From positions 1 to 63,399 of the forward strand of contig JAUQWW010000075.1 of the NCBI GenBank assembly GCA_030834965.1: a stretch of DNA of 63,399 nt, written 5' to 3'. Under the pieces are notes generated by a model. It did no database searches and was not told the origin of the DNA. It saw only the letters and a list, made by a program, of their open reading frames with translations. This stretch comes from Gallionellaceae bacterium (GTDB lineage Bacteria > Pseudomonadota > Gammaproteobacteria > Burkholderiales > Gallionellaceae). Shown here one piece after another: positions 22,678 to 54,489 of this stretch (its first letter is position 1; every line of letters begins with the position of its first letter). Position numbers and translations under genes: made by a program.

Positions 22678-23706
22678 TCAGTTAAACGGTTTCGGCGGCG
22701 GAGTCTTGTCCGTGGACGGTGGCAGGATTGGCATCATGAATGACGGCTGTTCTCCCGTGAGCGTCTTCAGGAAGGCCACGACCTTCGCATTTTCCTCGTC
22801 GGTAAATTTCTTGCCGAGCTGCAGGCGTCCCATGGTGTCCACTGCCTGCTTCAGTGTGGCAGCCTCGCCATCGTGGAAGTAGGGATAGGTCAGTTCCACG
22901 TTGCGCAGGGTGGGTACCTTGAAGTTGAAGCGGTCGGCATCATTGCCGGTGACGGCGGAACGGCCTTCCACCTTGCTGGTCGTCTTGTAGGGCTCGACCA
23001 CGCCCATCTTCTGGAATGACGCTCCACCTACCGCAGGCCCATTGTGGCAGGCAACGCAGCCGCTATCCTTGAATAGTTTGTAGCCGGCCAGTTCGGTTTC
23101 ATTCAGTGCCTTCTTGTCACCCTTCAGCCATTTGTCGAAACGCGAGTTGGGTGTCACCAGCGTTTCCTCGAAGGCGGCGATCGCCTTGGTTACTTGATCG
23201 ATATCCACCTTGTCGCTGCCGAATACATTCTTGAACTCGGCCACGTACTGCGGTATCGAGCGCAACACATCCAGTGCCAGTTCGTGCGTAAAAGCCATTT
23301 CACCCGGGTTGGCGATGGGGCCGCCAGCCTGTTCCTTCAAATCCTTGGCACGACCATCCCAGAACTGGGCCACGTTCATGCTCGAATTGAGCACGGTCGG
23401 GGAATTGATGGGGCCCTGTTGCCAATTGTGGCCGATGGACGATTTGAGGTTGTCCGTGCCGCCCATGCTCAGGTTGTGGCAGGAGTTGCAGGAGATGAAT
23501 CCGGACTTGGAAAGGCGCGGATCGAAGAAGAGTTTCTTGCCCAATTCGACCATCGCCGGGTTCGTGATCTTGGCTGGTTCGATTGGTTTGATCGGTTCTT
23601 TTGTTGTTTCCTCGGAGGCGCCATAACCTCCCGCCTCGGCAAAGACATGATTGGCCAGGGTTGCCAACGCAAATATCGAGGCTGCAACAATTACATTTCG
23701 TTTCAT
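22678..23706 (-). CDS. Dihaem cytochrome c peroxidase, MauG/CcpA family
   Basis: A 342-residue periplasmic protein. A signal peptide ends near NHVFAEA. Two c-type haem sites are seen: CNSCH (about 76-80) and CVACH (about 218-222). Family motifs include LGKKLFFDPRLSKSGFISCNSCHN and VPTLRNVELTYPYFHDG. It reduces hydrogen peroxide with electrons from small cytochromes. The ribosome site AAGGAG precedes the start. An imperfect dyad (23850-23868) of the kind found at the cytochrome promoters lies about 145 bases upstream. Confidence 0.92.
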   Translation of the reverse strand: MKRNVIVAASIFALATLANHVFAEAGGYGASEETTKEPIKPIEPAKITNPAMVELGKKLFFDPRLSKSGFISCNSCHNLSMGGTDNLKSSIGHNWQQGPINSPTVLNSSMNVAQFWDGRAKDLKEQAGGPIANPGEMAFTHELALDVLRSIPQYVAEFKNVFGSDKVDIDQVTKAIAAFEETLVTPNSRFDKWLKGDKKALNETELAGYKLFKDSGCVACHNGPAVGGASFQKMGVVEPYKTTSKVEGRSAVTGNDADRFNFKVPTLRNVELTYPYFHDGEAATLKQAVDTMGRLQLGKKFTDEENAKVVAFLKTLTGEQPSFMMPILPPSTDKTPPPKPFN

Positions 23707-23849
23707 TTGTTTAGCTCCTTAATAACAATTTAATCCACGTCATTCGCTGTTGAGGGCGCATTCATCAAGGCGCACTCATGCATCGTTTTTTGATGTGGGC
23801 CGAAATTCAGATTGGAGTGAACAATGCTATATGGATAAATCGAAAATGA

Positions 23850-23868
23850 AATAGGCAATCTCCTTAAT
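23850..23868 (-). promoter_or_regulatory. Candidate regulator dyad upstream of the peroxidase gene
   Basis: On the plus strand: AATAGG-N7-CTTAAT. On the gene strand it reads ATTAAG-N7-CCTATT. This is an imperfect version of the dyads at 38299-38317 and 45862-45880. It lies about 145-160 bases before the peroxidase start. Confidence 0.4.
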
Positions 23869-23978
23869 TTCAGAACGGTTGCGTGCCGCCTGTTGCGCGC
23901 GGATTTGAAGGAAGGGTCTTGCTACGAAATTTTCTGAATTGGCACCGATACGCGAGCCACGATGCGACGTATTTCCCG

Positions 23979-34096: not shown

Positions 34097-37000
34097 TCAG
34101 GCGTATTGCGTGATCAATGTCTCAAATTCCTTTATTGGCATCGGCTTGTTGAACAGATAGCCCTGGAAAGCGTGACAGCCATACAGATTGAGGAACTCGC
34201 GCTGTGCCTTGGTTTCCACTCCTTCTGCGATGACATTTAGCCCGAATGATCTGCCCATGGTGACGATGGCTTGCACGATGGCGGCATCGTTGGGGTTGGT
34301 GGCAAGATCGCGGATGAAGGACTGGTCAATTTTCAGCTGGTTGAGCGGCAGCTGCTGAAGGTTGGAGAGCGAGGAATAACCGGTGCCGAAGTCATCCATC
34401 GAGAAACTGACGCCAAGCTTCTTGATCGCATGCATCTTGGTAATCGTGTCGCTTACGTCATTGAGTACCAGGCTCTCGGTCAGTTCAATTTTCAGGCGTT
34501 CCGGATTGATGCCGGTCGTGGCCAGTGCCTGCTGCACCTGTGCGACAAAATCCGGTTGATGGAATTGGCGCACGCTGACATTGACGGAAAGCTGTAATTC
34601 ACGGGTGGCGGGATTGTCAGACCATTCCCTGAGCTGGGCACAGGCTTTTTGCAGTGCCCACATTCCAATCGGTATGATCAAACCGGTTTCTTCGGCCAGC
34701 GGAATAAATTTGTTGGGATAAATCAGGCCGCGTTCAGGGTGATACCAACGCAGCAACGCCTCGGCACCGACGACACGATGCTCACTGTCTATCTGTATCT
34801 GGTAATGGAGATGCAGTTGCTCGCGTGCCAGAGCATGGCGCAGGTCGTTTTCCAGCGCGTTATGCTCGACCAGCGTGGCCTGCATGGCGGGATCGAAAAA
34901 GCTCAGACGGTTGCGTCCGCCCTTCTTGGCGTGATACATGGCGATGTCGGCATATTTGAGCAGATTATCGACCGACTCATCATGTCCGAAAAACAGGCTG
35001 ATCCCGATACTGACTGTACAGGTAAATTCGACACCATCGAGCATGTAGGGCATGGCAATGGCGTCGCGCAATTTTTCCCCAACATGGCCGGCTTGAATGG
35101 CCGCTGCCTGGACATCCTCACCCAGATTTTCCAGCATCAACACGAACTCGTCGCCACCCAGTCGCACCACGGTGTCGCCCAGCCGCACCACCGTGTCGCC
35201 TTCGCGCACGCAGGCATTCAGGCGCTTCGCGATCTCGATCAGCAGCAGGTCACCCACATCGTGACCACGCGTATCATTGAGTTTCTTGAAATTGTCCAGA
35301 TCCATGAACAGCAAAGCGCCATAGCGCCCGCTGCGCTGACTGCCTGCCAGCGCCTGTCCCAGCCGGTCCATCAAGAGGCGGCGGTTGGGCAGATGAGTGA
35401 GCGGGTCGTAATAGGCCAGGCGGTGGATCTCGGCTGACGCCTCGGGGTCATGGGTAATGTTGGAAAAAGTGCCCACGTAATGGGTGATGCTGCCGTCGGG
35501 CGCGGTGACGGCGGAAATGTTCAGCCATTCGGCGTAGATCTTGCCATTCTTGCGGCGGTTCCATATCTCGCCCTGCCATTGCCGCTTCTGTTTCAGTGTG
35601 GCCCACATGCCCTCGAAGAACTCTTTACCGTGCCGCCCTGAGTTGAGCACGGCCGGCGTCTGTCCAACGATCTCTTCCGTGCTGTAACCGGTCAGGCGAG
35701 TGAATGCCTGGTTGGCCCGCATGATGACGCCGTTCGCGTCGGTCACGATGATGCCTTCCTGGGACTCGAAAGCGATGGCGGCGATACGCAACTCCTCTTT
35801 CGCCCTCTTGCGTTCGGTGATATCGCGCACCGTAGCCTGGATCAGCTTTTTGCCGCCAATTTCCATGCGCGTCAGCAACACGTCCGCCGCGAATTCTGTT
35901 CCGTCCATCCGCTTGTGCGTCCATTCGAAAAAGTTCGATCCGGTTTCCAGTGCAATCCGGATCATTTCCTGTGCTTTTTCATCTGATCTGCGTCCATCAG
36001 ACTGAAATTCAGGGGAGGTGAGTGCGGGGGACAAGGTGATAAATTCCTGCTCGTCGCGGCAACCAAACAGGGCGACGGCTGCTGCATTGCCACTTAAAAA
36101 TCCCTCTTCGGCGCTTGCCGTCATGATGGCGTCACGGGATGATTCAAACAGCATGCGGTAGGACTCTTCGCTCTCGCTCAGCGCCTCCTCGATCTGCTTG
36201 TGTTCGGTAATGTCTTCATGCAATGCCACCCAGACCTTGCCAAATTGGGGATGATCAAAAGTCGAAACACTGGCATGGCACCAGAAAGTGATTCCATCTT
36301 TTCTGATGTTATGCACTTCACCGCTCCACACTCCTGTTCGCATAAGCTCACTATTGATCGCGGTTGCCACTGCTTCTGGGCTGCTCTCGCCGGGGGCATT
36401 GACGATGCTCACATGTTTGCCGAGAAGTTCGCCAGGCCCGTAACCAAACATGCGTTCAAACTGCGGATTGGTGAAAACAATCTTCCCATCGCTGACACGA
36501 ATCAGGAATATGCCTTCCGATAGGTTACCCAAAATTTCGCTGTGCAAACGCAATACATCCTCGTTCTTCTTTCGCTCGGTGATGTCAGTGAATGCGATGC
36601 GCACGGGCGGGTGCTCATCATCCGACTCCATGCGCAGACAATCAAGATGAACGTGGAAGCGTGAACCGTCGCCGCGCATGAGCATCAGTTCGCAATCCTG
36701 TTTGTCGCCGTGTTGCGCTATGCGTAGGAAATACTGGCGCCAATGCTCGTGATCCTCAGGCACGATAAAATCTGCAAGACGGCGCTTTAGCAGTTTTTTG
36801 CGCTCCACTCCCAACAGAGCGGCAGCGGTGAGATTCACCTCGCTGATCCTGGCTTCGCTGGTAAGCGTGAGATAGCCGAGGGGGGCAAAATCATATAGAT
36901 TCAGGTAGCGGTCGCGTGTTTCTTCCAGGTCTTTCTGAGTACGCCGCAGTTCATCGTTCTGCATCTCCAGTTCGATCTGATAAACGCGGAGTTCTTGCAG

Positions 37001-37111
37001 GAGTTCATCGGAGGGGCGACATGCATCCTTCAGTTCAGCGCGGGCGAATTGTGCTTCGGCGGCGGTGAGCAGCGGGTTTGGATTGGCAGGTTTATTGCTG
37101 ATAGTGCTCAT
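34097..37111 (-). CDS. Multi-PAS diguanylate cyclase/phosphodiesterase (GGDEF-EAL)
   Basis: A 1004-residue cytoplasmic protein with no membrane helix. Four PAS-type domains (about 65-185, 190-310, 320-435, 440-560) precede GGDEF (intact RLGGDEF at about 650) and EAL (EALLRWYHP about 785; LTESLVLND; DDFGTGYSSLSNL; AEGVETKAQ). Both c-di-GMP motifs look intact, so synthesis or breakdown is possible. Just before GGDEF a seven-residue unit, GDTVVRL, is repeated in tandem, which is unusual. It is convergent with yceH. Confidence 0.92.
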   Translation of the reverse strand: MSTISNKPANPNPLLTAAEAQFARAELKDACRPSDELLQELRVYQIELEMQNDELRRTQKDLEETRDRYLNLYDFAPLGYLTLTSEARISEVNLTAAALLGVERKKLLKRRLADFIVPEDHEHWRQYFLRIAQHGDKQDCELMLMRGDGSRFHVHLDCLRMESDDEHPPVRIAFTDITERKKNEDVLRLHSEILGNLSEGIFLIRVSDGKIVFTNPQFERMFGYGPGELLGKHVSIVNAPGESSPEAVATAINSELMRTGVWSGEVHNIRKDGITFWCHASVSTFDHPQFGKVWVALHEDITEHKQIEEALSESEESYRMLFESSRDAIMTASAEEGFLSGNAAAVALFGCRDEQEFITLSPALTSPEFQSDGRRSDEKAQEMIRIALETGSNFFEWTHKRMDGTEFAADVLLTRMEIGGKKLIQATVRDITERKRAKEELRIAAIAFESQEGIIVTDANGVIMRANQAFTRLTGYSTEEIVGQTPAVLNSGRHGKEFFEGMWATLKQKRQWQGEIWNRRKNGKIYAEWLNISAVTAPDGSITHYVGTFSNITHDPEASAEIHRLAYYDPLTHLPNRRLLMDRLGQALAGSQRSGRYGALLFMDLDNFKKLNDTRGHDVGDLLLIEIAKRLNACVREGDTVVRLGDTVVRLGGDEFVLMLENLGEDVQAAAIQAGHVGEKLRDAIAMPYMLDGVEFTCTVSIGISLFFGHDESVDNLLKYADIAMYHAKKGGRNRLSFFDPAMQATLVEHNALENDLRHALAREQLHLHYQIQIDSEHRVVGAEALLRWYHPERGLIYPNKFIPLAEETGLIIPIGMWALQKACAQLREWSDNPATRELQLSVNVSVRQFHQPDFVAQVQQALATTGINPERLKIELTESLVLNDVSDTITKMHAIKKLGVSFSMDDFGTGYSSLSNLQQLPLNQLKIDQSFIRDLATNPNDAAIVQAIVTMGRSFGLNVIAEGVETKAQREFLNLYGCHAFQGYLFNKPMPIKEFETLITQYA
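35159..35200 (-). repeat. 21-base tandem duplication ahead of the GGDEF motif
   Basis: Two 21-base units (35159-35179 and 35180-35200) differ at two positions. They encode GDTVVRL twice, immediately before GGDEF, in the strand that leads into the active-site hairpin. The differences show the duplication is not brand new. Confidence 0.9.
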
Positions 37112-37196
37112 TGATACCCGTTACGATGGTATAGCAAAACAATGTTTCGGAAGTGTCACTACTATTAGCGCGGCTGCTTTTGAGGTTATTCACAAT

Positions 37197-37225
37197 AAAA
37201 AAGGGCCGGACTTCATGTCCGGCCC
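37197..37225 (-). terminator. Intrinsic terminator of the tetrahaem cytochrome gene
   Basis: On the minus strand: GGGCCGGAC, five-base loop, GTCCGGCCC, then a run of six T. It lies 33 bases after the cytochrome stop. Confidence 0.92.
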
Positions 37226-37257
37226 AGTTCAGATCCTGGCTCGGCCCCGCTACTCTC

Positions 37258-38130
37258 TTACTTCACGTGACAGGAGAGGCAGGTGACGCTGTTGGTGTTT
37301 CCTCCGGCACGACGCATAAAGAGGCCGTTGGTCGAGTGCGGATCATGGCAGGATGCGCATTCCACCTGCGGACCGATGCCATCGGTACGGTCAGACTTGG
37401 CAGCATAGAGGATCATGTCGGTCTTCTGGCGCGAGCCGCTGGTGCCGTCGCTGGTATCCACCCACCATGGTCCGGCTGCCATATTTCCACCCGTACCTGC
37501 GGTTGGCAGGACGAAGTCGGCATCCCTGCAGGTGCCAATATTGCCGCCGACCGGGCCGCCGCAGTATTCAACTCCGATCGGGTGGTCGTTCGACAGATCG
37601 GTGCCGAGCATGGCGACTGTGTTGCTGTTCAGCTTGCCTGCGGTCTGGTTTGCGCCCGTCCATTGATAGCCACGGCCGCCGGCGCCCCCGCCGGTTGGAT
37701 CGTAGTTGCCCGAACCTGGGGCGTTGATGATGTTATCCATCGCCTGCGCGCCGTCGTGGCAGGACAAGCATGCCAGCGAGATGGCGCCGGGTTTGCCGAC
37801 CACACCATCCATGGTGCCGGACTGGAGGCTGGCATAGGTCTTATAGTTGGTGCCCGACGGCAATTGCTTGTTCCACAGCGGCGCAGCCGCAGAAGTATCG
37901 GATCCGTGCGGAGTATGGCAGAACACGCAGATTTCGCCATTGAGGCTAAGACCGGCAGGGTTGGGGCCGCTGACGTAGTTGATATTCTTTCCGTTCGAGG
38001 AACCCAAGTTGTGCTTGGTGTCAGCAATACCAGCAGCCAGCGCCGGTTGGGCGGTGAGGGCAAACCCCATAACCAGAGCGCCTGCGGAAAGCAATCCCGG
38101 CAGATGCCTGGGCTTAGTCAATATTCTCAT
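37258..38130 (-). CDS. Tetrahaem c-type cytochrome, doubled CXXCH family
   Basis: A 290-residue exported protein. A signal peptide (LLSAGALVMGFALTAQPALA) is followed by four haem-binding sites: CVFCH, CLSCH, CASCH and a C-terminal CLSCH. Text such as CHTPHGSD, CLSCHDGAQAMDNIINAPGSG and NDHPIGVEY is shared with the pentahaem protein at 53392-54318, so the two are paralogues. A non-haem cysteine pair (EYC and GTC) is present only here. It is probably periplasmic or outer-membrane-associated, in electron transfer. A parvulin-type isomerase lies upstream on the same strand, across a terminator. A dyad and a 24-base block shared with the dsrC-like promoter lie 154-187 bases upstream. Confidence 0.88.
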   Translation of the reverse strand: MRILTKPRHLPGLLSAGALVMGFALTAQPALAAGIADTKHNLGSSNGKNINYVSGPNPAGLSLNGEICVFCHTPHGSDTSAAAPLWNKQLPSGTNYKTYASLQSGTMDGVVGKPGAISLACLSCHDGAQAMDNIINAPGSGNYDPTGGGAGGRGYQWTGANQTAGKLNSNTVAMLGTDLSNDHPIGVEYCGGPVGGNIGTCRDADFVLPTAGTGGNMAAGPWWVDTSDGTSGSRQKTDMILYAAKSDRTDGIGPQVECASCHDPHSTNGLFMRRAGGNTNSVTCLSCHVK

Positions 38131-38284
38131 GATGAATCTCCTCCCCGTTTGGTTTTAGTGTTAAGTCAGAAAACGTACGCTGTTTGGTTGATGTTAAGAC
38201 CAGCGTATTGAGTGCACGGTTCAATTACCATCTCTCAGGATCATATCCACTATATGGATGATCTGTTGCGGATGGTAATGTAAG

Positions 38285-38317
38285 AACCATGACAATCCAA
38301 TAAGCAAAATGCTTAAT
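38285..38317 (-). promoter_or_regulatory. Candidate regulator site upstream of the tetrahaem cytochrome
   Basis: The plus strand shows AATAAG-N7-CTTAAT (38299-38317). The block 38285-38308, read on the minus strand as TTTGCTTATTGG then ATTGTCATGGTT, is identical over 24 bases to 45871-45894 upstream of the dsrC-like gene. Both copies read toward their gene. In both loci CTTAGG occurs 20 bases before TTGC. Confidence 0.65.
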
Positions 38318-38441
38318 TTTGCCTAAGAGTGGGCTGACTATATATCTGAACGCTGGCAGATTTTCGGCTGCGCAATGAACTGATCATATATTGCTGATTA
38401 TTAATGGAATATATAAGGGGCGGCAGGAAGATCCAGGCAAT

Positions 38442-38469
38442 AAAAAAAGCGGCTCGGAGGCCGCTTTTT
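38442..38469 (-). terminator. Intrinsic terminator of the parvulin gene
   Basis: Stem GCGGC with GCCGC around a six-base loop, flanked by a run of A on one side and T on the other, so it can act in both directions. On the minus strand it is 22 bases past the parvulin stop and separates it from the cytochrome gene. Confidence 0.9.
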
Positions 38470-38490
38470 CTGCTGAAGAAAAATACCTGC

Positions 38491-39276
38491 CTATTCGATC
38501 TTTGCCTTGGCGCGCAGGTCGGTGATCGCCTGCTGTATCGACTGCCGCAACATGTTTTTCGAGATGTCTGCCTTGCCTTCCTCAAGGGAAGGTATCTTCA
38601 GTTCGCGTACGTCTTCCAGCTTGATGATGTGCCACCCGAATTGGGACTGCACCGGCTCACTCACCTGGCCCTTGGTGAGGTTCAATATCGCATCGGCAAA
38701 CGGCTTGACATAATTGGCAGGAATGCTCCAGCCCAGATCGCCACCCTTGTCGCGGGAACCCACATCCTTGGAATTGCTTTCTGCAAGCTTGTCGAATTTC
38801 CCACCTTTTTTCAGTTTTGCAGCGACGGATTTTGCTGCATTTTCATCCTCGACCAGAATATGGCGTACCTTGTATTCCTTGGTGCCGAGGCGGGCCTTCA
38901 GCTTTTCATACTCCTGTTTGAGCGCGTCATCGGTGATTTTATGTGTCTTGGCATAGTTCTGCACGAAGGCATCTACCAGCACCGCCTGCTTCGCCAACTC
39001 AAGTTGCTGTAGGGTTTCGGCTTGCTTGTCCAGGCCCATTTTCGCTGCTTCCTGTGCCATGACTTCGACGTTGATCAGGTCTTCGCGAACTGCCTTGCGC
39101 AGGTCAGGACTGTCTGGCTGGCCCTGTGAAACGATGGAGGCGATGCGCATGTCCAGGCGCGACTGCGGAATGGATACACCGTTTACCTTGGCGATGGCTT
39201 TGTCTTCGGCGTGGACCGGGCTGGTAGCGATTGCACCCAGCATGGCGAGCGCAGCGAATTTGGAAAAATGGGTCAT
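38491..39276 (-). CDS. Periplasmic parvulin-type peptidyl-prolyl isomerase
   Basis: A 261-residue exported foldase. Signal peptide (FAALAMLGAIATSPVHA), N-terminal helical SurA-N-like region, then the rotamase domain KVRHILVEDENAAKSVAAKLKKGGKFDKLAESNSKDVGSRDKGGDLGWSIPANYVKPFADAI, FGWHIIKLEDV. It helps fold exported proteins. Its place just upstream of a multihaem cytochrome suggests, but does not prove, a role in that protein's maturation. Confidence 0.92.
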   Translation of the reverse strand: MTHFSKFAALAMLGAIATSPVHAEDKAIAKVNGVSIPQSRLDMRIASIVSQGQPDSPDLRKAVREDLINVEVMAQEAAKMGLDKQAETLQQLELAKQAVLVDAFVQNYAKTHKITDDALKQEYEKLKARLGTKEYKVRHILVEDENAAKSVAAKLKKGGKFDKLAESNSKDVGSRDKGGDLGWSIPANYVKPFADAILNLTKGQVSEPVQSQFGWHIIKLEDVRELKIPSLEEGKADISKNMLRQSIQQAITDLRAKAKIE

Positions 39277-39363
39277 TAGTTTCAGTCCTTGTTGAGAAAA
39301 TTAAGGTATGGCACGTCTGTCAATTTCTGCTGCCGGATATTTGCTATCGGATTTCTTCTGGCG

Positions 39364-39660
39364 TCAGATTTCGTCTGGTGCAAAGGCCGTTATGTGCAAC
39401 GCATGGATGTCCTGCTTCATCATTTCACCGAGCGCGGAATATATCATACGGTGCCGTGCTACGGTAGGCTTGCCGGCGAACTGCGCCGACACGATGTTGA
39501 GCCGGTAATGCCCACCGCCCGCGCGCGCGCCGGCATGTCCCGCGTGCTTGTGGCTGTCATCGATAATCTCGATTTTGGTGGGCCGCAATGCTTCAAGCAG
39601 GGCGGTCATCTGCGCTATTCTGTTGCTGCCGGCGTGTTTGATGCAAGCGGGATTGGGCAT
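39364..39660 (-). CDS. BolA family protein
   Basis: About 98 residues. BolA text: IEIIDDSHKHAGHAG, GGHYRLNIVSAQFAGKPTVARHRMIYSALGEMM, then IHALHITAF. BolA proteins pair with monothiol glutaredoxins in iron-sulfur handling. ATG 39660 has GAGG six bases upstream. An ATG at 39672 overlaps the yciI-like stop (ATGA), so either start is possible and the genes are likely coupled. Confidence 0.9.
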   Translation of the reverse strand: MPNPACIKHAGSNRIAQMTALLEALRPTKIEIIDDSHKHAGHAGARAGGGHYRLNIVSAQFAGKPTVARHRMIYSALGEMMKQDIHALHITAFAPDEI

Positions 39661-39668
39661 GGGTGGCC

Positions 39669-39971
39669 TCATGCCGGAAATGTTTTTCGGAAAGGCTTGA
39701 CCATTACTTGCGCATACACCCCAGCACTCATGTAAGGATCGGCCTGAGCCCAGGTTTCGGCCTCCGGCAACGTAGCAAATTCCGCCACGATCAGGCTGCC
39801 GGAAAATCCCGCCGTAGCAGGGTCCAGCGCATCCACGACAGGGAAGGGGCCGGCCAGAATCAGGCGACCCTCATCCTGCAAGGCCTGGAGCCGCGCCACA
39901 TGCGCAGGCCGGGCTGTCAGACGCGTCTCCAGGCTGTCCGGCACATCCTGGCCGATGATGGCGTACAGCAT
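39669..39971 (-). CDS. YciI family protein
   Basis: A 100-residue ferredoxin-like dimeric alpha/beta barrel protein. [44 protein letters not shown] and the His/Asp pocket residues match YciI. Enzymatic role unknown. The start overlaps the yciB stop by one base (TGATG); yciB-yciI-bolA is a familiar gene order. Confidence 0.92.
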
Positions 39972-40585
39972 CAGTTATTTTCCTTTTCTTCATCCACATA
40001 TTTAGCCAGTGTCATGGCTTGCAGCAGCACGAATACGAGCATCATGCCGGTGGCGCCGAACAGTTTGAAATTGACCCAGGCATCGGTGGAGAAGTTGAAT
40101 GCGACATACAGGTTGGTTACGCCCAGCACGACAAAAAACAGGCTCCAGCTCAGGTTGACGCGGTTCCATACCCTGGTGGGTAGCGTGAGCTTTTCCTGCA
40201 GCAGGGCGCGCATCAGGTTCTTTTTGAATAGCAGATTGGAAAACAGCAGCGTGCCGGCGAATACCCAATACAGTGCAGTCGGTTTCCATTTGATAAAGTT
40301 TTCATCATGCAGCAGCAACGTCGCGCCGCCGAGCACGGCAATCAGTGCGAAGCTCACCCACAGCATGGTATCCACTTTGCCATGGTGCCATTTCACCCAT
40401 GCGATTTGGATGATGGTCGCGACAATTGTTGCTGCAGTAGCGAGTAAAACCGGTAACTGTTTTGGATCAACAAGATAGCCGATAGAGTTGGCCCATGCCT
40501 GCGCTGAATCGGGGTTGCTTCCGGCAAGCTTGAACACGATAAAGAACAGAATGACGGGGAATAGATCGAAAAGCGTTTTTTTCAT
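39971..40585 (-). CDS. yciB: YciB/IspZ inner-membrane septation protein
   Basis: A 204-residue protein with about five or six membrane helices. [78 protein letters not shown] are the family hallmarks. It takes part in cell-envelope synthesis and septation in E. coli and Shigella. First of the yciB-yciI-bolA set. Confidence 0.93.
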
Positions 40586-40608
40586 GGCGGCGAATTATGT
40601 CGGTAATG

Positions 40609-41004
40609 TCAGGCTCTGTCGAGCACGAGCGCGGTTGAGTTGATGCAGTAGCGCAGACCGGTCGGCTCCGGCCCATCCTCGAAGACGTGGCCCAGATGCG
40701 CGTTGCAGCGGCTGCACAGCACTTCGGTGCGGACGATGCCGTGGCGGGTGTCTTCGCGCGTGATAATGCTGTCAGGCTGGTGTGGCTGCCAGAAACTGGG
40801 CCAGCCGCTGCCGGAATCGAATTTCGTCTCCGAATCGAACAGCGGATTGCCGCAGCACACGCAGCGATACACTCCGGTGTCGTGACAATCCCAGTACTGG
40901 CCGGTGAAGGGTGCTTCAGTGCCGCACTGGCGGCATACCTGGTATTGCTCGGGGGTAAGCTCGCCGCGCCAGTCTGCATCCGTTTTTCTATTCTGATCGG
41001 TCAC
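40609..41004 (-). CDS. msrB: Peptide methionine (R)-S-oxide reductase
   Basis: A 131-residue MsrB. The Zn-binding pairs CRQC is not part of the canonical set, but CVCC and CSRC are; [13 protein letters not shown] and the catalytic Cys in [10 protein letters not shown] are present. It repairs methionine-R-sulfoxide using thioredoxin. The start overlaps the phoH-like stop by four bases. Confidence 0.94.
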
Positions 41005-42422
41005 AACACCTCGGCAGCATGATCGGCCAGGCGTGAACGTTCGCCGCGTTGCAGGGTGACGTGCCCGCTGTGTTCCCAGCCCTTGAAACGATCCACCACG
41101 TAAGTCAGGCCGGAGCTTCCTTCGGAGAGGTAGGGCGTATCAATCTGCGCGATATTGCCCATGCACACCACCTTGGTGCCCGGGCCGGCGCGCGTGATGA
41201 GTGTCTTCATCTGCTTGGGGGTGAGGTTCTGCGCCTCGTCGATGATCAGGAACTTGTTGAGGAAGGTGCGCCCGCGCATGAAGTTGAGCGACTTGATCTT
41301 GATGCGGCTGCGGATCAGGTCGCGCGTTGCGGCGCGTCCCCATTCGCCGCTCTCTTCATCCGACTTGTTGAGCACGTCCAGATTGTCATCCAGCGCGCCC
41401 ATCCATGGCGACATCTTTTCTTCTTCGGTTCCGGGCAGGAAGCCGATGTCTTCCCCTACCGGAACGGTGACGCGGGTCATGATGATTTCCGAATACAGTT
41501 TGTGCTCCAGCGTCTGCATCAAACCGGCGGCCAGCGTCAGCAGCGTTTTTCCGGTGCCCGCCTGGCCAAGCAGGGTGATGAAATCAATCTCCGGATTCAT
41601 CAGCAGATTGAGCACGAAATTCTGCTCGCGGTTGCGCGCAGTAATGCCCCAGATGGCATTTTTCTGGTGCGTATAATCGGTCAGCGTGCGCAGCATCGCG
41701 CCGTTTCCGCTTTGTGCGGTGACCACGGCATAGAACGGGTTGCCCCCGTCATTTTCCTGGTAAACAAACTGGTTCACCATCAGGTCGCGGCACAGCGGCC
41801 CCTGAATGTCATAAAACATGTGTTCGCCCTGCGGGCCGGACTTCATGTCCTTGCCGTGCTTGTCCCAGAAATCCTGCGGCAGCGCGCGTACGCCGGTGTA
41901 GAGCAGATCGGTGTCTTCCAGCACCTTGTCGTTGAAGTAGTCCTGCGCAGACAGGCCAAGCGCACGTGCCTTGATGCGCATGTTGATGTCTTTACTGACC
42001 AGCGTTACCTGGCGTCCGGACTGCTGCTTGTGCAGGAACATCACCACGCCCAGTATGGCGTTGTCGGCCTTGCCCATGACCAGATTGGCCGGCAATTCGT
42101 TACTGATAAACTGGGTCTGCAGGAACAGGCGGCCGGCGGCGGCCATGTTTCCCTGTGAGTTCAACGGCACGCCCTCCTCCATGTTGGGTGTGCTTTCGCT
42201 GATGAGCGTGTCGAGAAAACGGCTGGCCTGACGCGCGTTGCGCGCGACTTCCGTCATGCCCTTCTTGTTGTTGTCCAGCTCCTCCAGCACGAATATCGGC
42301 AGGTAAATGTCATGTTCCTCAAAGCGGAACAGGCTGGTGGGGTCGTGCATCAGCACGTTGGTGTCCAGCACGAAAAGTTTTGTGGAGGGTGTTGTTGCAG
42401 TTGGTGCCTTGCGTGGGGTCAT
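41001..42422 (-). CDS. PhoH-family ATPase with N-terminal PIN domain (PhoH2-like)
   Basis: A 473-residue protein. The N-terminal PIN domain has [18 protein letters not shown] and EELD acidic residues; the C-terminal PhoH domain has Walker [11 protein letters not shown] and [16 protein letters not shown]. PhoH2 proteins are RNA helicase/RNases in mycobacteria; activity here is inferred. ATG 42422 is preceded by AAGGAG and is preferred to the frame start at 42500, which overlaps the peroxiredoxin gene. Confidence 0.92.
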
Positions 42423-42436
42423 GATGCTCCTTGGTT

Positions 42437-42892
42437 TTATAGGGACTGCACGAACTCTAATACTTGCTGGGCGTGGCCGTCTGCCTTGACGCCGCGCCAT
42501 TCATGGCGCAAAACGCCGTTCTGGTCGAGCACGAAGGTGCTGCGCTCAATGCTGCGCACCTGCTTGCCATACATGTTCTTCAGCTTGATTACGCCGAACT
42601 GTTTGCACACCATTTCGTCAGCATCGGACAGCAGCGCGAATGGCAGGCTGAACTTGGCCTTGAAGTTCTCGTGCGACTTAATGCTGTCGCGCGAAATGCC
42701 GATTACCTGGCAATCAGCCTTCTGGAATGCGGCATACAGGTCGCGAAACTGCTGGCCCTCCACAGTGCAGCCCGGCGTGTTGTCCTTGGGATAGAAATAG
42801 ATCGCCAGCGGTTTGCCGCGTGCGGCAGAGAGCTTGAAAACAACGCCACCGGTAGCGGGCAATACAAAATCGGCAACAGCCTGACTGGACAT
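42437..42892 (-). CDS. bcp: Thioredoxin-dependent peroxiredoxin, Bcp/PrxQ type
   Basis: About 151 residues. The peroxidatic Cys is in FYPKDNTPGCTVEGQQFRD; ISRDSIKSHENFKAKFSLPFALLSD follows. A resolving Cys five residues on, as in some PrxQ proteins, is absent, so it is the one-Cys or atypical form. It reduces hydroperoxides. ATG 42892 gives the usual short N-terminus; ATG 42922 overlaps the mnmH end and has no ribosome site. Confidence 0.9.
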   Translation of the reverse strand: MSSQAVADFVLPATGGVVFKLSAARGKPLAIYFYPKDNTPGCTVEGQQFRDLYAAFQKADCQVIGISRDSIKSHENFKAKFSLPFALLSDADEMVCKQFGVIKLKNMYGKQVRSIERSTFVLDQNGVLRHEWRGVKADGHAQQVLEFVQSL

Positions 42893-42905
42893 GAGGGATG
42901 GGCTC

Positions 42906-43982
42906 TTAGACAGTGCTGTCATTGTTTACAAAATCGCCGGACAAGGCAAGCGCTTCTTCGGCGAGGGAATTGAAACTTTTTTCGTCCAGTGAACCCAGGG
43001 TGAGGCGGTATGCCGCATCGTAATTCGGGAAATGGCTCTTGATGGATTTATTGTATGCCGGGTCATAATGCCGCTCCAGCAATTCGGATATGAATGCGTC
43101 CCAGGCTTGCGCCTCGCACAGCGCGTGCCAGTGTGCCAACATCTCGTTGGAGTACATGCCACGCAGGCGTTCCAGCTGTTGGCGCAGCAGCGCCGGGTCC
43201 TGCAAAAAATGCGCATAGTCCTCAAGCAGCAGCGCCACGCGCAATGATACGGGAGCCTCCAGGCGCAGGCAAAGACCACTGCGCATGGCCTCCAGCAGCG
43301 TATCGGGAACGCGCAGCACGCCGATCTTCTTGCTTTCGGATTCGACATAAACCGGAACAGCTGGATCAAAGGATTTCAGTTTGGCCAGCACCTGGCTGTC
43401 GAAACCTTTTTGCGAAGGTTGGGGCGCATTGGGCATGTCGCCCAGCACCGAGCCGCGATGCCGTGCGATCTGTTCCAGGTCCAGCACCTGTGCGCCCGCT
43501 CTCTGCAATGCAGCCAGCAGGCGGCTCTTGCCGCTGCCCGTCAAGCCGCACACCACGCGAAAGGAAAAGGCAGCGGGCAGTGTTTGCAGTTGTTGCAGCA
43601 CGTGATGGCGGTAGCCCTTGTAGCCGCCGTTCAGCCGTTCGGCAGCGAAGCCGATCTGGCGCAGGATGTGCGTCATCGCACCGCTGCGCTGTCCGCCGCG
43701 CCAGCAATAAATAAGCGGATGCCAGGACTTGGGTTTGTCCAGCCAGCATTGTTCGAGATGGCGTGCGATGTTGCGCGCGATCAGAGCCGCACCGACTTTT
43801 TTCGCCTCGAACGGAGCTTGCTTGTACAGCGTGCCCACGCGCGCCCGTTCCGCATCATCCAGCACCGGGCAGTTGATCGCACCGGGAATATGGTCCTCGG
43901 CGTATTCGGAGGGTGAGCGCACATCCACGATTTCATCAAACTCATGCAGTTGCGCTACGGTTGCCAACCCAGAATGTTTCAC
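42906..43982 (-). CDS. mnmH: tRNA 2-selenouridine (geranyl-2-thiouridine) synthase
   Basis: A 358-residue protein. An N-terminal rhodanese domain has IVDVRSPSEYAEDHIPGAINCPVL and the active Cys93 in YCWRGGQRS; the C-terminal P-loop domain has VVCGLTGSGKSRLL. It geranylates and then selenates the wobble 2-thiouridine of tRNAs for Lys, Glu and Gln. No selD was seen in the window, so selenium supply is unproven. Confidence 0.95.
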   Translation of the reverse strand: MKHSGLATVAQLHEFDEIVDVRSPSEYAEDHIPGAINCPVLDDAERARVGTLYKQAPFEAKKVGAALIARNIARHLEQCWLDKPKSWHPLIYCWRGGQRSGAMTHILRQIGFAAERLNGGYKGYRHHVLQQLQTLPAAFSFRVVCGLTGSGKSRLLAALQRAGAQVLDLEQIARHRGSVLGDMPNAPQPSQKGFDSQVLAKLKSFDPAVPVYVESESKKIGVLRVPDTLLEAMRSGLCLRLEAPVSLRVALLLEDYAHFLQDPALLRQQLERLRGMYSNEMLAHWHALCEAQAWDAFISELLERHYDPAYNKSIKSHFPNYDAAYRLTLGSLDEKSFNSLAEEALALSGDFVNNDSTV

Positions 43983-44080
43983 TAAATGGCTGCTTCCACA
44001 ACAAATGACAGATGGGAATTATATGCGTGCGCGGCTTTGATTGGCGAGACCGATGGAGGTTGCCGCGAGTGTGGGCACAT

Positions 44081-45121
44081 TCAGAGTGCGGCCTTGACGG
44101 CCGATGGAACAGGACGGTATCCCGGCATGCCACCGCTGATCTCGGTCCACAATTCGCGTAACGGGATGCGGTTCTGCCCGGTGCGATCCACCCACTCAGT
44201 GGGAACCGGCTTTCCGGGGTTAAATCGCACTCCCCAGACCGGTTCAAACGTGTCGGTGCGCAGCGAGTAGCGGGCGTCTCCGATCACCGTTGGATCGCTC
44301 TTGGCGCGGGCAACCCATCCTGCCGAGAAATAATTGAAGCGGCCAAAATCCCGGAGCACGCGCTCGTCTGCCTGCGCATCTGTCGGCATGTCCCGCATGC
44401 TCAGCAAAGCCACCTCGCTGCCCTCCTTCCATAGCGGCGCGCCCGCGAACATGATACGGACTCGGTCCGAGTAGAGGGTTTCTCCCGATTGATAGACCGA
44501 GCGCCACACCAATGGATTGCCGATGGTGGGAAACATCTCTGCGCGGGTGATTGCGTGCCCGCGGGATGCGGCGATGTGCGCCTGCACATCGAGCGCGCTC
44601 TCCCGCTGCACGGCGGCGGTGCCGACGTAGGCCAGGCACATTGCCAGTGCGGCAGCTGCGGGAAGGCGCGAGCGCCCGCGAACCGCAAATACCAGGCCAA
44701 CCAGCAGCATCAGGGTGAACAAGGGGCCGATTGTTGTGATCCAGTGCCATGCCGTGCGCACCTCGGAGAAAGGCCATAACAGATGCGTGCCGTAGTTGGT
44801 GCATGCATCCAGCACTCCATGCGTGGCGTAGCCAATGCTGGCCGCCGCGTAGACGGCCAGCCAGTTCGCGCGGTAACGTTTTTGCAGCAGCCAGGGCAAT
44901 GACGCGATCAGGCCGCCAACCGGAATGAATGCGAATGCATGCGTGAAATGGCGGTGATACTCGATTGCGAGCAGCGGGTCGGCCGCGCTGGAAACAAAAA
45001 AATCAACATCGGGCAGCAGGGCGCCGGCTGCGCCGATCATCCAGGTGTGGCGTCCCAGGCGTGAACCCAAAGCGGCTTGTGAGGATGTCGCGCCGAGCAG
45101 TGCATGTGTAAAGGGATCCAT
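44081..45121 (-). CDS. YdjM-like membrane-bound metal-dependent hydrolase family protein
   Basis: A 346-residue protein. MDPFTHALLGATSS, GALLPDVDFF, EYHRHFTHAFAF and YATHGVLDACTNYGTHLLWPFS carry the conserved His/Asp residues of the DUF457/YdjM family. About four membrane helices lie in the first half; the C-terminal half is soluble. In E. coli ydjM belongs to the SOS regulon; no LexA box is evident here. Substrate unknown. Confidence 0.85.
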   Translation of the reverse strand: MDPFTHALLGATSSQAALGSRLGRHTWMIGAAGALLPDVDFFVSSAADPLLAIEYHRHFTHAFAFIPVGGLIASLPWLLQKRYRANWLAVYAAASIGYATHGVLDACTNYGTHLLWPFSEVRTAWHWITTIGPLFTLMLLVGLVFAVRGRSRLPAAAALAMCLAYVGTAAVQRESALDVQAHIAASRGHAITRAEMFPTIGNPLVWRSVYQSGETLYSDRVRIMFAGAPLWKEGSEVALLSMRDMPTDAQADERVLRDFGRFNYFSAGWVARAKSDPTVIGDARYSLRTDTFEPVWGVRFNPGKPVPTEWVDRTGQNRIPLRELWTEISGGMPGYRPVPSAVKAAL

Positions 45122-45207
45122 ATGTATTCCTGTTATGTGCAGCTATCTTCCAGGTACGGATTCAGTAGCCGCAAAAATGCAGTCTATTGACGATTGACCC
45201 GCATGGA

Positions 45208-45759
45208 TCAGGTATTTTTCGCAATGATGTTGGTGGGTATGCCATCTATGCTCATCTGGTTCTTGTCCTGCCAATATTTTCTCAATCCTTCCTCGCCCTT
45301 GTTCTGCGCCCATTCCCTTAGCTGATCCCGCTCTCCTTCATGGGTGAAATGCGGAACGCCAAAGCCGCACGAAGTTTGCACGAGATCAACCGACAGATCA
45401 AATATCTGGCGCGCACCTGGAATCGGCTCAAACAAGGAATACAAGGCTTCCCAAGCGGAATCATGCGGGTGAACAACCTTTGCATTTCCGTACAAGCGGA
45501 GGATCAGAGGGTTTGCGGCGAAAGAGCAGAACATGATGGTCATCCTCGGATCCTGCCGAACATGAGCGGCGGTCTCATTTCCGCTGCCGGTGAGGTTTAG
45601 CCAGACGACCCGATTCTTATCGATCATTCGCAGGGAGTCCATGCCCTTCGGAGAAACATTAACCCGGCTATCGGCAGTTGCGGTTCCAATGAAAAAAATT
45701 CTTTGCTCAGCGATGAACCGAGCATGCATGTCAGACAACTCCGGATACATTTGTGCCAT
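45208..45759 (-). CDS. Pyridoxamine 5'-phosphate oxidase family protein
   Basis: A 183-residue flavin-binding split-barrel protein. FFIGTATADSRVNVSPKGMDSLRMIDKNRVVWLNLTGSGNETAAHVRQDPRMTIMFCSF is typical of the PNPOx-like group of unknown substrate rather than PdxH itself. The C-terminal HFTHEGERDQLREWAQNKGEEGLRKYW is also family-typical. It is divergent from the dsrC-like gene. Confidence 0.88.
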   Translation of the reverse strand: MAQMYPELSDMHARFIAEQRIFFIGTATADSRVNVSPKGMDSLRMIDKNRVVWLNLTGSGNETAAHVRQDPRMTIMFCSFAANPLILRLYGNAKVVHPHDSAWEALYSLFEPIPGARQIFDLSVDLVQTSCGFGVPHFTHEGERDQLREWAQNKGEEGLRKYWQDKNQMSIDGIPTNIIAKNT

Positions 45760-45861
45760 GGGAACCCTTGATGACTGTAAGGATATTGCTGCGGAGAGAG
45801 CGCTTCGCTATTTTAGACGCACCCAGCAAAGTGCACCATTTTAAGGATTTCCTTAGGACAA

Positions 45862-45894
45862 AATAAGTGGTTTGCTTATTGGATTGTCATGGTT
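45862..45894 (+). promoter_or_regulatory. Candidate regulator site upstream of the dsrC-like gene
   Basis: A perfect dyad AATAAG-N7-CTTATT (45862-45880) overlaps a 24-base block (45871-45894) identical to the tetrahaem cytochrome upstream region. CTTAGG lies 20 bases before TTGC here too. It is 41 bases from the start codon. Confidence 0.65.
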
Positions 45895-45935
45895 ATCGCA
45901 TTAGTATTTCTGAAAACTTAATGGAGGAATCCGCC

Positions 45936-46301
45936 ATGCTGGATATTGGGAAATTTATCAGATACGAGCGCCTTGATTCAACCGATCCGGAAGGCAACCT
46001 GTTCGAGCTGGGTTCATGGACGCCAAAAAAGGCGCTGCAACTCGCTGCGGAGGAGGGGATTACGCTGACAGATGAGCATTGGGAGGTGATCACCAGCTTG
46101 CGGGAGAGATACCGCAAATATGGCAGTGCCATGAATGCGCAAGATCTGGGCCGTGAATTGGAGGAGGAGTTTTCCAGTGAACAGGGACGGCGAAGCCTTT
46201 ACGAGCTATTTCCGGGAGGACCGGTCACTCAGGGATGCAGGATTGCCGGCCTGCCTGTGCCCTCGGGTAGTGTGGATACCTCATTTGGCAGCGTCAGATG
46301 A
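45936..46301 (+). CDS. DsrC/TusE-superfamily protein with one C-terminal cysteine
   Basis: A 121-residue protein. The DsrC fold is recognisable: FELGSWTPKKALQLAAEEGITLTDEHWEVITSLRERYRKYG and LYELFPGGPVTQGCRIAGLPVPSG. DsrC normally has two cysteines in its C-terminal arm. Here the upstream one is kept (C101, in QGC) but the penultimate one is replaced by serine (S112), and nine residues extend beyond. It therefore cannot form the usual DsrC trisulfide bridge between both cysteines; a regulatory RspA-like role is possible. ATG 45936 has GGAGGA seven bases upstream. It is followed by an AF1514-like gene. Confidence 0.85.
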   Translation: MLDIGKFIRYERLDSTDPEGNLFELGSWTPKKALQLAAEEGITLTDEHWEVITSLRERYRKYGSAMNAQDLGRELEEEFSSEQGRRSLYELFPGGPVTQGCRIAGLPVPSGSVDTSFGSVR

Positions 46302-46357
46302 AATGATGCCTGGCTCCCGGCCATTCCAGTTTCCGGGTAGTTACAGAGGAGATAATC

Positions 46358-46777
46358 ATGAAACACGTTCAATTGAACGTCTCGGGTATGAATCTTGATT
46401 TTAAGACGGCAAGCGCGCTTGCCGCTTCCTGTGCAGGGAGGGATGTTGAAATGGAAGAGCCTGTACTTGTCGCGTGGCACGATAAACGCCAGTCCAGGAT
46501 GTCGCCAGTAATTGAAGGCGCCGATATCAGTTCGCGCTGGCGTGACTATGGTGTAAGCCACAGTGGCTGTCTGGAAGTTGACGTTGGTGGCGATTACGAT
46601 TTCATCTTTGCAGACTCGGCTGCCTTCAATGATTATGGCCCGAGTCCGTATGTGAACATCACTGATGGGAAGGGGCAGGAATATATTTGTCAGATCATTA
46701 ACGCAGTACATGGGGGACGTAGCCCGGACATGAATTCCCGTGTCCCATTGGACGAATACACCAGCAAGATGACGTAA
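46358..46777 (+). CDS. AF1514/DUF5619-like protein
   Basis: A 139-residue protein. The pattern LNVSGMNLDFKTASALA, then VAWHDKRQSRMSPVIE and LEVDVGGDYDFIF resembles the AF1514 family known from sulfate reducers. This is judged by eye and is not certain. It has a clear ribosome site (GGAG) 56 bases after the dsrC-like stop, and a terminator follows, so the two form a likely two-gene operon. Function unknown; a sulfur-related role is inferred only from the partner. Confidence 0.65.
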   Translation: MKHVQLNVSGMNLDFKTASALAASCAGRDVEMEEPVLVAWHDKRQSRMSPVIEGADISSRWRDYGVSHSGCLEVDVGGDYDFIFADSAAFNDYGPSPYVNITDGKGQEYICQIINAVHGGRSPDMNSRVPLDEYTSKMT

Positions 46778-46828
46778 AGATAAATTGCCCGACTTGCCTA
46801 GCCAGCGATTCTTGCACTGTTTCCAGCG

Positions 46829-46858
46829 ACCTCGCCCCGGCGGCGAGGTTTGTTTTTT
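46829..46858 (+). terminator. Intrinsic terminator of the dsrC-like operon
   Basis: ACCTCGCC pairs with GGCGAGGT around a five-base loop, followed by TTGTTTTTT. It lies 51 bases after the AF1514-like stop. Confidence 0.92.
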
Positions 46859-46923
46859 GCGCTCGCGCCATGCATCAAATCAAGATGGGTACTTCAAATC
46901 CAATACCCGCGCTCATATTGTAT

Positions 46924-46999
46924 TGGTGCCCCGAACACGAATCGAACGTGTGACCTACCCCTTAGGAGGGGGTCGCTCTATCCACTGAGCTACCGGGGC
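46924..46999 (-). tRNA. tRNA-Arg (anticodon CCU)
   Basis: The minus strand folds into a full cloverleaf: acceptor GCCCCGG paired with TCGGGGC (one G-U), D-arm GCTC/GAGC, anticodon stem ACCCC/GGGGT with loop CTCCTAA (anticodon CCT, reads AGG), T-arm with GTTCGATTC, discriminator A and an encoded CCA. A -10-like TAGAAT lies at 47009-47014 on the same strand, just upstream. Confidence 0.95.
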
Positions 47000-47406
47000 G
47001 CGACGCGCATTCTATCGTAAAAACTGTTTGGATGAAGTTTCCGCTCGCCCCGTCCATTTTGACGAGGCGCATGCCGCACCCGGTAGAATGGGCAGCGCGT
47101 GCAGCACATTACCGCGCACTGTTGTCGTTCGTGAGTTGGGAAAGCTCGCAATGCTCCTGCGTTTCCCGGTCTTCGGCCCGGAGAGCCATATTCAGGCATT
47201 GTGGATCAGCGTGATGGCGCAGCGACTCGTGGCGGCCGGGGGCGAAGGCTGCAGGCGTGCTTCAGCAGTATCTCTGTGAGCGAATACGAGCGGGGTACGG
47301 CGTTCGGCTGGTATCATCTCACTGTTGGGCTAAACGCCATCCCGGCCGGCGCTGGCGTTGCTGGCTAACAGACAAGAATCCAGATAACGATTTCAGGAAA
47401 CAAAGC
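47000..47406. other. Gap with no convincing gene
   Basis: The first 15 bases hold the tRNA promoter -10. Open frames (for example 47028-47279) have no ribosome site and no recognisable domain. A hairpin AACGCCA/TGGCGTT lies at 47333-47359. Nothing else was seen. Confidence 0.4.
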
Positions 47407-47865
47407 ATGAACTTCGCAAGATCAAATTTATTTATCGCCTGGTTTCTAATACCGGAAACACTGGCGATGGGCTGGGTAGCGTTCGTCGGGCGCATGCTGC
47501 TGGAACTGCTCGGTGTGAGTACCGAGGAGGAAGGTATTCCGGGGCGCATCGTAGGCGCATTGTTGCTGCTGGGCGTGGTGTCCGCGGTGCAGATCATGCG
47601 CGGCTCGCTGGCGCCCGTCGGCAATCCCGAGGGACGGGGCTATCGTTTCGGCCACCGCTGGGTGCTGGCCGCCAATGTTCTGGCGGCGCTGCTGTTCATC
47701 TTCCCGTTTACCTGGCAGCTGCTGCCGAATCGCGACGTGGTAATGGTGTTTTCCAAATTCACCATTGCGTTCGGATATTGGGTGATGGCGATGTGGGGCA
47801 TCGGTTTCTCTTTCATTTACCAGTCCGGCTTGCCGGCCAAGTCTTCTTCTACCTCTCATAGCTGA
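47407..47865 (+). CDS. Hypothetical four-helix membrane protein
   Basis: About 152 residues with about four hydrophobic helices (FIAWFLIPETLAMGWVAFVG, IVGALLLLGVVSAVQIM, VLAANVLAALLFIFPFTW, FGYWVMAMWGIGFSFIYQ). No family was recognised. ATG 47407 has AGGAAAC upstream; the longer frame from 47257 is not supported. The stop overlaps the uup start by one base, so the two genes are coupled. Confidence 0.7.
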   Translation: MNFARSNLFIAWFLIPETLAMGWVAFVGRMLLELLGVSTEEEGIPGRIVGALLLLGVVSAVQIMRGSLAPVGNPEGRGYRFGHRWVLAANVLAALLFIFPFTWQLLPNRDVVMVFSKFTIAFGYWVMAMWGIGFSFIYQSGLPAKSSSTSHS

Positions 47866-54476: not shown

Positions 54477-54489
54477 CCAATAAGCAAAA
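54477..54489 (-). promoter_or_regulatory. Half-site upstream of the pentahaem cytochrome
   Basis: CCAATAAGCAAAA is identical to 38297-38309 upstream of the tetrahaem paralogue, and lies at a similar distance from its start (159 versus 167 bases). Only the AATAAG half of the dyad is kept. CTTGGC occurs 20 bases before TTGC on the gene strand. Confidence 0.5.

Follow-up and report, generated by a model that had tools for sequence, protein, structure and literature searches.

A recurrent dyad promoter element in a Gallionellaceae genome and its candidate NarL/GacA-type regulator

The DevR/DosR dormancy regulon of mycobacteria is governed by a NarL-type regulator with its kinase and includes an Hsp20-type target, and its DNA motif differs from the AATAAG-N7-CTTATT dyad described here. 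In E. coli catalase and WrbA are sigma-S dependent. To our knowledge, gene control in the hard-to-grow iron and nitrite oxidisers (Gallionella, Nitrotoga) has barely been studied. For GacA and UvrY the box TGTAAG-N6-CTTACA is given in the available parts of two papers (PMC4682653, PMC4950607), and for the low-oxygen-activated (lxa) locus of Burkholderia cenocepacia the available part of the source proposes BCAM0049, BCAM0287 and BCAM1483, of CRP-family or cyclic-nucleotide-binding type, as regulators (PMC4981469). A published description of a regulon with the present dyad was not found among the literature listed, which is a weak negative as most subscription papers lie outside that coverage.

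The window, i.e. the whole analysed stretch of 63,399 nucleotides from a Gallionellaceae bacterium, contains dyads which share the inverted TAAG/CTTA half-sites with the GacA/UvrY box, as far as the box is given in the available parts of these papers. With a probability of about 0.8, the dyad block would be a promoter element of a regulon at about 40 places in the genome, most likely worked by a kinase-regulator pair encoded on another contig (C74).

Dyads and the 24-base block in the window

The original prediction described two dyads, AATAAG-N7-CTTAAT (38299-38317) and AATAAG-N7-CTTATT (45862-45880), and both are present. The identity claimed for the 24 bases at 38285-38308 (minus strand) and 45871-45894 (plus strand) is exact, with the sequence TTTGCTTATTGGATTGTCATGGTT, and at both promoters CTTAGG indeed starts 20 bases before TTGC, as read from the sequence. 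The weaker dyad proposed upstream of the dihaem peroxidase gene (23850-23868) lies within a full promoter match of our profile model R1. A 13-base half-site at 54477-54489 had also been proposed; its letters are present, but no R1 match was found there at E<=0.1 and it was rejected as a further site. The features of the window are as follows:

38299..38317, minus strand: dyad, ATTAAG-N7-CTTATT as read toward the tetrahaem cytochrome gene (pattern search)
38272..38319, minus strand: predicted whole promoter element of the tetrahaem cytochrome gene with dyad, spacer and -10-like hexamer (R1, 38.9 bits; one of the 27 training sites)
38272..38277, minus strand: -10-like hexamer TACCAT, +40 to +45 from the dyad start (sequence, alignment and offset count)
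38285..38308, minus strand: 24-base block, common to 45871-45894 and G000:C28:11475-11498 (mismatch search)
37258..38130, minus strand: downstream gene, 290-aa multihaem (doubled CXXCH) cytochrome c (Pfam PF09699)
45862..45880, plus strand: perfect dyad AATAAG-N7-CTTATT upstream of the DsrC-like gene (pattern search)
45860..45907, plus strand: predicted whole promoter element of the DsrC-like gene, -10-like TAGTAT at 45902-45907 (R1, 37.2 bits; one of the 27 training sites)
45842..45855, plus strand: weaker upstream dyad TAAG-N6-CTTA in the DsrC-like gene promoter, its right half being CTTAGG (read from the sequence)
45871..45894, plus strand: 24-base block, common to 38285-38308 (mismatch search)
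45936..46301, plus strand: downstream gene, 121-aa DsrC/TusE-family protein (PF04358; TIGR03342 over cut-off)
23824..23870, minus strand: predicted third promoter element ATTAAGGAGATTGCCTATT, -10-like TATAGC/TAGCAT one base nearer (R1, 26.4 bits; outside the training set)
22678..23706, minus strand: downstream gene, di-haem peroxidase/MauG-like protein (PF03150; best NCBIfam model TIGR03791, below cut-off)

The DsrC-like protein has the C-terminus GCRIAGLPVPSGSVDTSFGSVR, in which one C-terminal cysteine is kept and the final one is absent; true DsrC carries a further, last C-terminal cysteine. Adjoining the tetrahaem cytochrome gene, 34097-37111 encodes a 1004-aa protein with several PAS domains, one GGDEF and one EAL.

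Considered by itself, the window shows only mild enrichment of the dyad, with 8 rows at up to two mismatches versus a shuffle mean of 2.66 (2 of 100 shuffles reached 8). The window on its own is weak evidence for the dyad; the whole genome decides. When the TTTGCTTATTGGATTGTCATGGTT block was searched in the whole genome with up to three mismatches, five places were obtained (three exact, one with 2 and one with 3 mismatches) and none with the control. One exact copy outside the window, G000:C28:11475-11498, is the third and precedes a second tetrahaem cytochrome gene (L027), whose product is 64% identical to that in the window, and the copy with two mismatches lies upstream of a ccoN-type gene (L017). 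As two of the three exact 24-mers thus precede paralogous cytochromes, promoter and gene were probably copied together, which speaks for the identity being a mere recent duplication or dispersed repeat without regulatory meaning. However, the remaining exact copy precedes the DsrC-like gene, which belongs to another family, the dyad and -10-like hexamer recur at many sites and in relatives with a different spacer, and a same-strand search within 36000-48000 gave no repeat of at least 20 bases. An explanation by duplication or repeat only is strongly disfavoured and very improbable.

Genome-wide occurrence and promoter anatomy

The genome (G000, 3.07 Mb in 104 contigs) was searched with AATAAG-N7-CTTAWT and the reversed pattern as control, whereby a palindromic place counts as two rows. 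The motif is clearly above this control, with 73 rows versus 18 at up to one mismatch and 32 versus 2 without mismatches, and the distinct places amount to 22 perfect ones and 41 with up to one mismatch. Random scatter, or membership of a repeat inside genes, had been named as evidence against a regulatory site; this was mostly not what was found, though a small number of the 41 places, situated within genes or at a distance from any, were excluded.

Forty of the 41 places were given loci (L001-L021 and L022-L040), 23850 being without its own locus. For the logo and alignment 32 of the 40 were oriented. The eight ambiguous or poor ones, L004, L024, L029, L030 (where the dyad sits within a long reading frame), L036, L038, L039 and L040, were excluded. 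R1 was built from 27 of the 32, excluding L018, L022, L025, L035 and L037; it was trained on sites of this genome only, which was counted against the preferred mechanism. The 36 loci from relatives, with one site each, comprise L041-L056 and 20 further stretches, of which 19 were picked by eye for consensus likeness before the flanks were seen and one came from a perfect-match search.

The alignment of the 32 own and 36 relatives' sites yields the consensus AATAAG(G/C)AAWTT(G/C)CTTATT, a spacer and a -10-like TAYYAT at +40 to +45. As the outer half-sites are fixed by the search pattern, the new information lies in the centre and the downstream part. Orientation of the sites was assigned by gene position and partly by eye, and an orientation-free offset count guards against the resulting bias. 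In this count TANNNT stands at +40 in 21 of the 32 own and 26 of the 36 relatives' sites, versus a mean of 0.97 and 1.76 and a highest count of 3 and 10, respectively, at other offsets (39 and 41 set aside).

The -10-like hexamer at +40 places the dyad centre about 43 bp before the expected transcription start, overlapping the -35 position; around -43 is the usual place of a sigma-contacting (class II) activator. The only sigma-70-like match in 38130-38500 has 9 of 12 bases (chance mean 1.0, this one promoter being scanned), does not use the predicted -35/-10 pair and overlaps TACCAT with its first hexamer. A good -35 is thus missing at the 38272-38319 promoter, which suits an activator at about -43. 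A protein bound over the -35 position could also block polymerase, so that the dyad might be a repressor operator, or the regulator might repress at some sites and activate at others; given the missing -35 at the scanned promoter, we regard this as fairly unlikely.

Two further ideas on the promoter were dropped. A second dyad in tandem at 23 bp, matching in 5 or more of 8 letters, is not supported as a general feature: it accompanies 3 of the 32 own sites and 4 of the 36 in relatives, versus a background of 0.88 and 1.38. Such tandems are seen at several regulator-linked promoters (L082, L084, L109, L112, L113 and L119). An EpsB-type gene (TIGR03013) behind one of the sites had raised the idea of a sigma-54 promoter of the PEP-CTERM/EPS type. 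The sigma-54 consensus is GG-N10-GC; the elements carry the -10-like hexamer at +40, and by eye no GG-N10-GC was seen.

Six elements of this genome, in L023, L031, L033, L240 (two) and L241, have similar spacers around AATTTTGCTTATTTACTTGCC and may form a promoter sub-class or a separate repeat family. A further spacer sub-class has GTACTACCAT at its end (GGACTACCAT in L021); it was observed in L015, L021, L028 and G172 (L254, L255) and is common to hsp20 and other promoters of two genera.

A candidate regulator: linkage and co-occurrence

The original prediction called the regulator unknown. By co-occurrence and linkage a strong candidate can now be named, a NarL/GacA-type response regulator encoded on C74, where a perfect dyad (G000:C74:36852) sits between a two-component pair and hsp20. 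The gene order of this cluster (L077) is PAS-PAS-HisKA_3 kinase, NarL-type regulator, dyad, hsp20 (PF00011), chaperonin and BCAM0308-family gene. The response regulator has 218 aa with PF00072 and PF00196 over the gathering cut-offs (receiver and GerE/LuxR-type HTH), and its best solved relative is NarL (1a04, 153 bits). The partner kinase (L077:4705-6462, minus strand; PF07730 (HisKA_3) and HATPase_c) adjoins the regulator. Among the matches listed for this genome no dyad with up to one mismatch precedes the kinase-regulator operon, which gives no sign of autoregulation.

Of the 16 family genomes with the regulator, 13 carry a dyad (up to two mismatches) no more than 360 nt behind its gene. 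Within this distance none was found in G013 and G021. In G078, which has the regulator twice, one copy is without a dyad and the other is followed by a sequence with two mismatches that was not counted. In seven of 12 named relatives (regulator of at least 54% identity) a dyad follows within 150 nt, namely in Gallionella sp. DP16D, three Candidatus Nitrotoga, a Nitrosospira MAG, a Nitrosomonadales MAG and UBA6492. No dyad stands beside the regulator gene in L115, L116, L117 and L118, and L114 has only one, 638 nt away. The two sets overlap (G172:C266 appears to be L108), and in G049, a member of another family, the regulator gene has no adjacent dyad. The gene behind the regulator-linked dyad varies and is of Hsp20 type, of the BCAM0308 family or rpoS (L112 and L113, RpoS models over the cut-off); that the site is kept while the gene behind it changes implicates the adjacent regulator. 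Near the kinase-regulator pair of L112 a CheB-CheR fusion is encoded (9-2069, plus strand; PF01339, PF01739), and frames in L113 and L118 are similar by eye.

Orthologues of at least 59% identity over nearly the full length are present in 10 of 60 genomes, this one included, and the next full-length relatives reach at most 47%; G004 is an exception, with a second, partial copy (residues 6-99, 73%). Forward rows of the perfect dyad versus control are 50 versus 12 in the 10 orthologue genomes and 10 versus 14 in the other 50. With up to one mismatch AATAAG-N7-CTTATT gives no clear excess in the regulator-bearing relatives G007 (14 forward, 16 control), G025 (22 and 14), G032 (13 and 20) and G004 (6 and 5), together 55 versus 55, which was counted against the association; an excess is seen in these genomes with perfect matches only (7 and 1, 8 and 2, 8 and 3, and 5 and 1). 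In these AT-richer relatives, therefore, only perfect or profile matches are informative.

Co-occurrence was also assessed in 150 genomes of the family, this one included, with R1 at E<=0.01 and a profile of the C74-type regulator at E<=1e-60. Among the matches listed, R1 matches were obtained in 22 of the 150 genomes, and the regulator is present in 16. Genomes with the regulator have an R1 match in 15 of 16 cases versus 7 of 134 without it, and 172 R1 matches stand in regulator genomes versus 16 elsewhere, again among the matches listed (Fisher p 1.6e-14 for the genomes, ignoring shared ancestry). Nine of the 16 belong to one genus (g8), which we infer to be Candidatus Nitrotoga, so that genome counts overstate independence. 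The association nevertheless repeats inside single genera. Within g8, G007, G025 and G032 have 8, 16 and 9 R1 matches among those listed, and G017, where the orthologue is missing, is also without an R1 match at E<=0.01 among the matches listed, though it has 1-2 perfect-pattern rows. Regulator and promoter are both present in G033 and both absent from G010, G018 and G026 of genus g11, and likewise present in G172 and absent from G011 and G019 of genus g12, among the matches listed.

Some genomes count against the association. G006 has the regulator and no R1 match at E<=0.01 among the matches listed. G087 and G102 have 4 and 6 R1 matches among those listed, with a best regulator relative of about 190 bits versus about 390-415 for most orthologues, and G016, G031, G066, G099 and G108 have 1-2 listed matches each without an orthologue. 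The R1 matches in these seven genomes would fit a different factor, another NarL-, LysR- or CRP/FNR-type protein that shares genomes with the C74 regulator, and other NarL-type regulators are encoded in the genome, one of them beside the EPS gene promoter (L003:654-1397). This last one had been a candidate for the regulator and was set aside once the linkage of the C74 type was known. However, the dyad follows the C74-type regulator gene in the 13 family genomes and seven named relatives given above, before varied genes, and its half-sites fit the GacA type as given in the available parts of the papers. With co-occurrence assessed for the C74 type, a different factor is quite unlikely.

Motif, spacing, genome-wide number, presence in relatives, and co-occurrence and physical linkage with the regulator are observed here. 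In the mechanism that we prefer, the block would act as a class II-type activator site. Its 19-bp inverted repeat, with the centre about 43 bp ahead of the predicted start and that start some 6-8 nt behind the TAYYAT hexamer, would be bound by a dimer of the NarL/GacA-type regulator encoded at G000:C74, phosphorylated presumably at D60. The upstream PAS-PAS-HisKA_3 sensor kinase would be its partner and would sense a signal, perhaps redox, oxygen or starvation. The regulator would then recruit RNA polymerase to a few dozen stress-protection, envelope and electron-transfer promoters, including those of the three window genes, and the bound DNA would carry AATAAGSAAWTTSCTTATT, overlapping the predicted promoters. 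Binding, activation over repression, phosphorylation dependence, transcription start and signal are what we infer from sequence.

Predicted targets, the RpoS link and known systems

As target, the nearest downstream gene of each dyad in this genome was taken; for the comparison of targets, made after the alignment, L022 and L025 were reversed and L035 and L044 left out. A regulon of redox genes had been proposed. The common regulatory site and the regulon are well supported because of the enrichment in this genome, the fixed spacing to the -10-like hexamer and the presence in several genera, but "redox" is too narrow, the targets being largely of stress, envelope and adhesion type. Predicted stress-type targets are Hsp20 (PF00011), catalase (PF00199; nearest NCBIfam model HPII, below cut-off) and WrbA (over cut-off). 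Others are an alpha-amylase-type protein (PF00128), DUF2934, DUF3303, OmpA-type proteins, an EpsB-type glycosyltransferase and two two-partner-secretion adhesins, one of which was scanned (PF13018, PF05860) and the other is 90% identical. Electron-transfer genes are one part of the predicted target set, namely cytochrome b561, ccoN-type, tetrahaem cytochrome, DsrC-like and di-haem peroxidase-like genes. The ccoN-type gene of L017 (PF00115; best NCBIfam match ccoN) stays below the cut-off because it is cut by the locus end. Family profile scans gave no match for the targets at L002, L016, L021, L028 and L033.

Across genera Hsp20 recurs in G000, G172 and G021 and the alpha-amylase type in G000 and G172 (88% identical). 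BCAM0308-family proteins are among the targets in Nitrotoga-like genomes, and most Nitrotoga targets compared have no counterpart among those of this genome. These lists suggest a regulon that is broader than redox and varies in membership between genera. A dyad was also seen near a DNA photolyase gene in the Nitrotoga-like L065 (PF00875, PF03441; L068 similar by eye), a further stress-type candidate target.

RpoS (TIGR02394 over cut-off) was found in none of the 150 family genomes, nor in any of the 94 good-quality ones, and the best match in this genome has 271.6 bits versus the cut-off of 378.7. In a sample of 150 genomes of the order 68 exceed the cut-off, as does one of 16 genomes of a smaller set (G049, of another family). 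Three genomes of the order, G181, G225 and G229, have 9, 11 and 7 RpoS-type matches at E<=1e-95, some of them below the cut-off.

The absence of RpoS from the family, together with the dyad directly before rpoS in two relatives (L112, L113), suggests a pair that formerly acted through sigma-S and has come to control stress genes directly, and we propose a two-component stress regulon that would partly stand in for sigma-S. Against this link, RpoS by TIGR02394 is also missing from the majority of the order genomes searched, and 134 of the 150 family genomes are also without the regulator. A more far-reaching idea is that the family lost RpoS and that a two-component system which would activate rpoS in relatives, by a dyad of this kind, took over the stress genes directly. 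The result would be a regulon of general-stress type under one response regulator, independent of a stress sigma factor, with respiratory and multihaem genes wired in; we hold this tentative idea to be possible rather than probable. If true, it would show how a stress response is rewired once its stress sigma factor disappears. What was a "possible regulon" can now be tested as a circuit, since its promoter element is defined, a candidate pair is named and a few dozen targets are predicted.

Among the described systems, DevR/DosR is alike in that DevR is one of the solved relatives of the C74 regulator by sequence (3c3w, 112 bits), and differs in that it belongs to another phylum and NarL is the better match. 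The lxa locus resembles the C74 cluster by the BCAM0308-family gene (NF040826 lxa_BCAM0308, 219.5 bits, cut-off 100), which stands in the kinase-regulator cluster together with an Hsp20 gene. Whereas CRP-type regulators are proposed there, in the available part of the source, the candidate here is of NarL type and the sites are scattered over the genome. With the RpoS regulon the predicted targets share catalase and WrbA, and the dyad precedes rpoS in two relatives; unlike there, control would be exerted by a DNA-binding regulator and not by a sigma factor.

GacA/UvrY/SirA is the best NCBIfam match of the C74 regulator (NF007018), but its 179.3 bits are below the curated cut-off of 280 bits. 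In contrast to the box in the available parts of the GacA/UvrY papers, the dyad here has N7 instead of N6 (our dyad searches covered N7 only) and AAT instead of TGT flanks, and the partner kinase here is a PAS-PAS-HisKA_3 protein. For UvrY the available part of the source describes a specific csrB/csrC site far upstream of the promoter (PMC4682653), whereas the present sites lie at about -43 of many protein-coding genes. The C74 regulator would thus work like a GacA/NarL-type protein, but it is not filed as GacA because the spacing differs and the family cut-off is missed.
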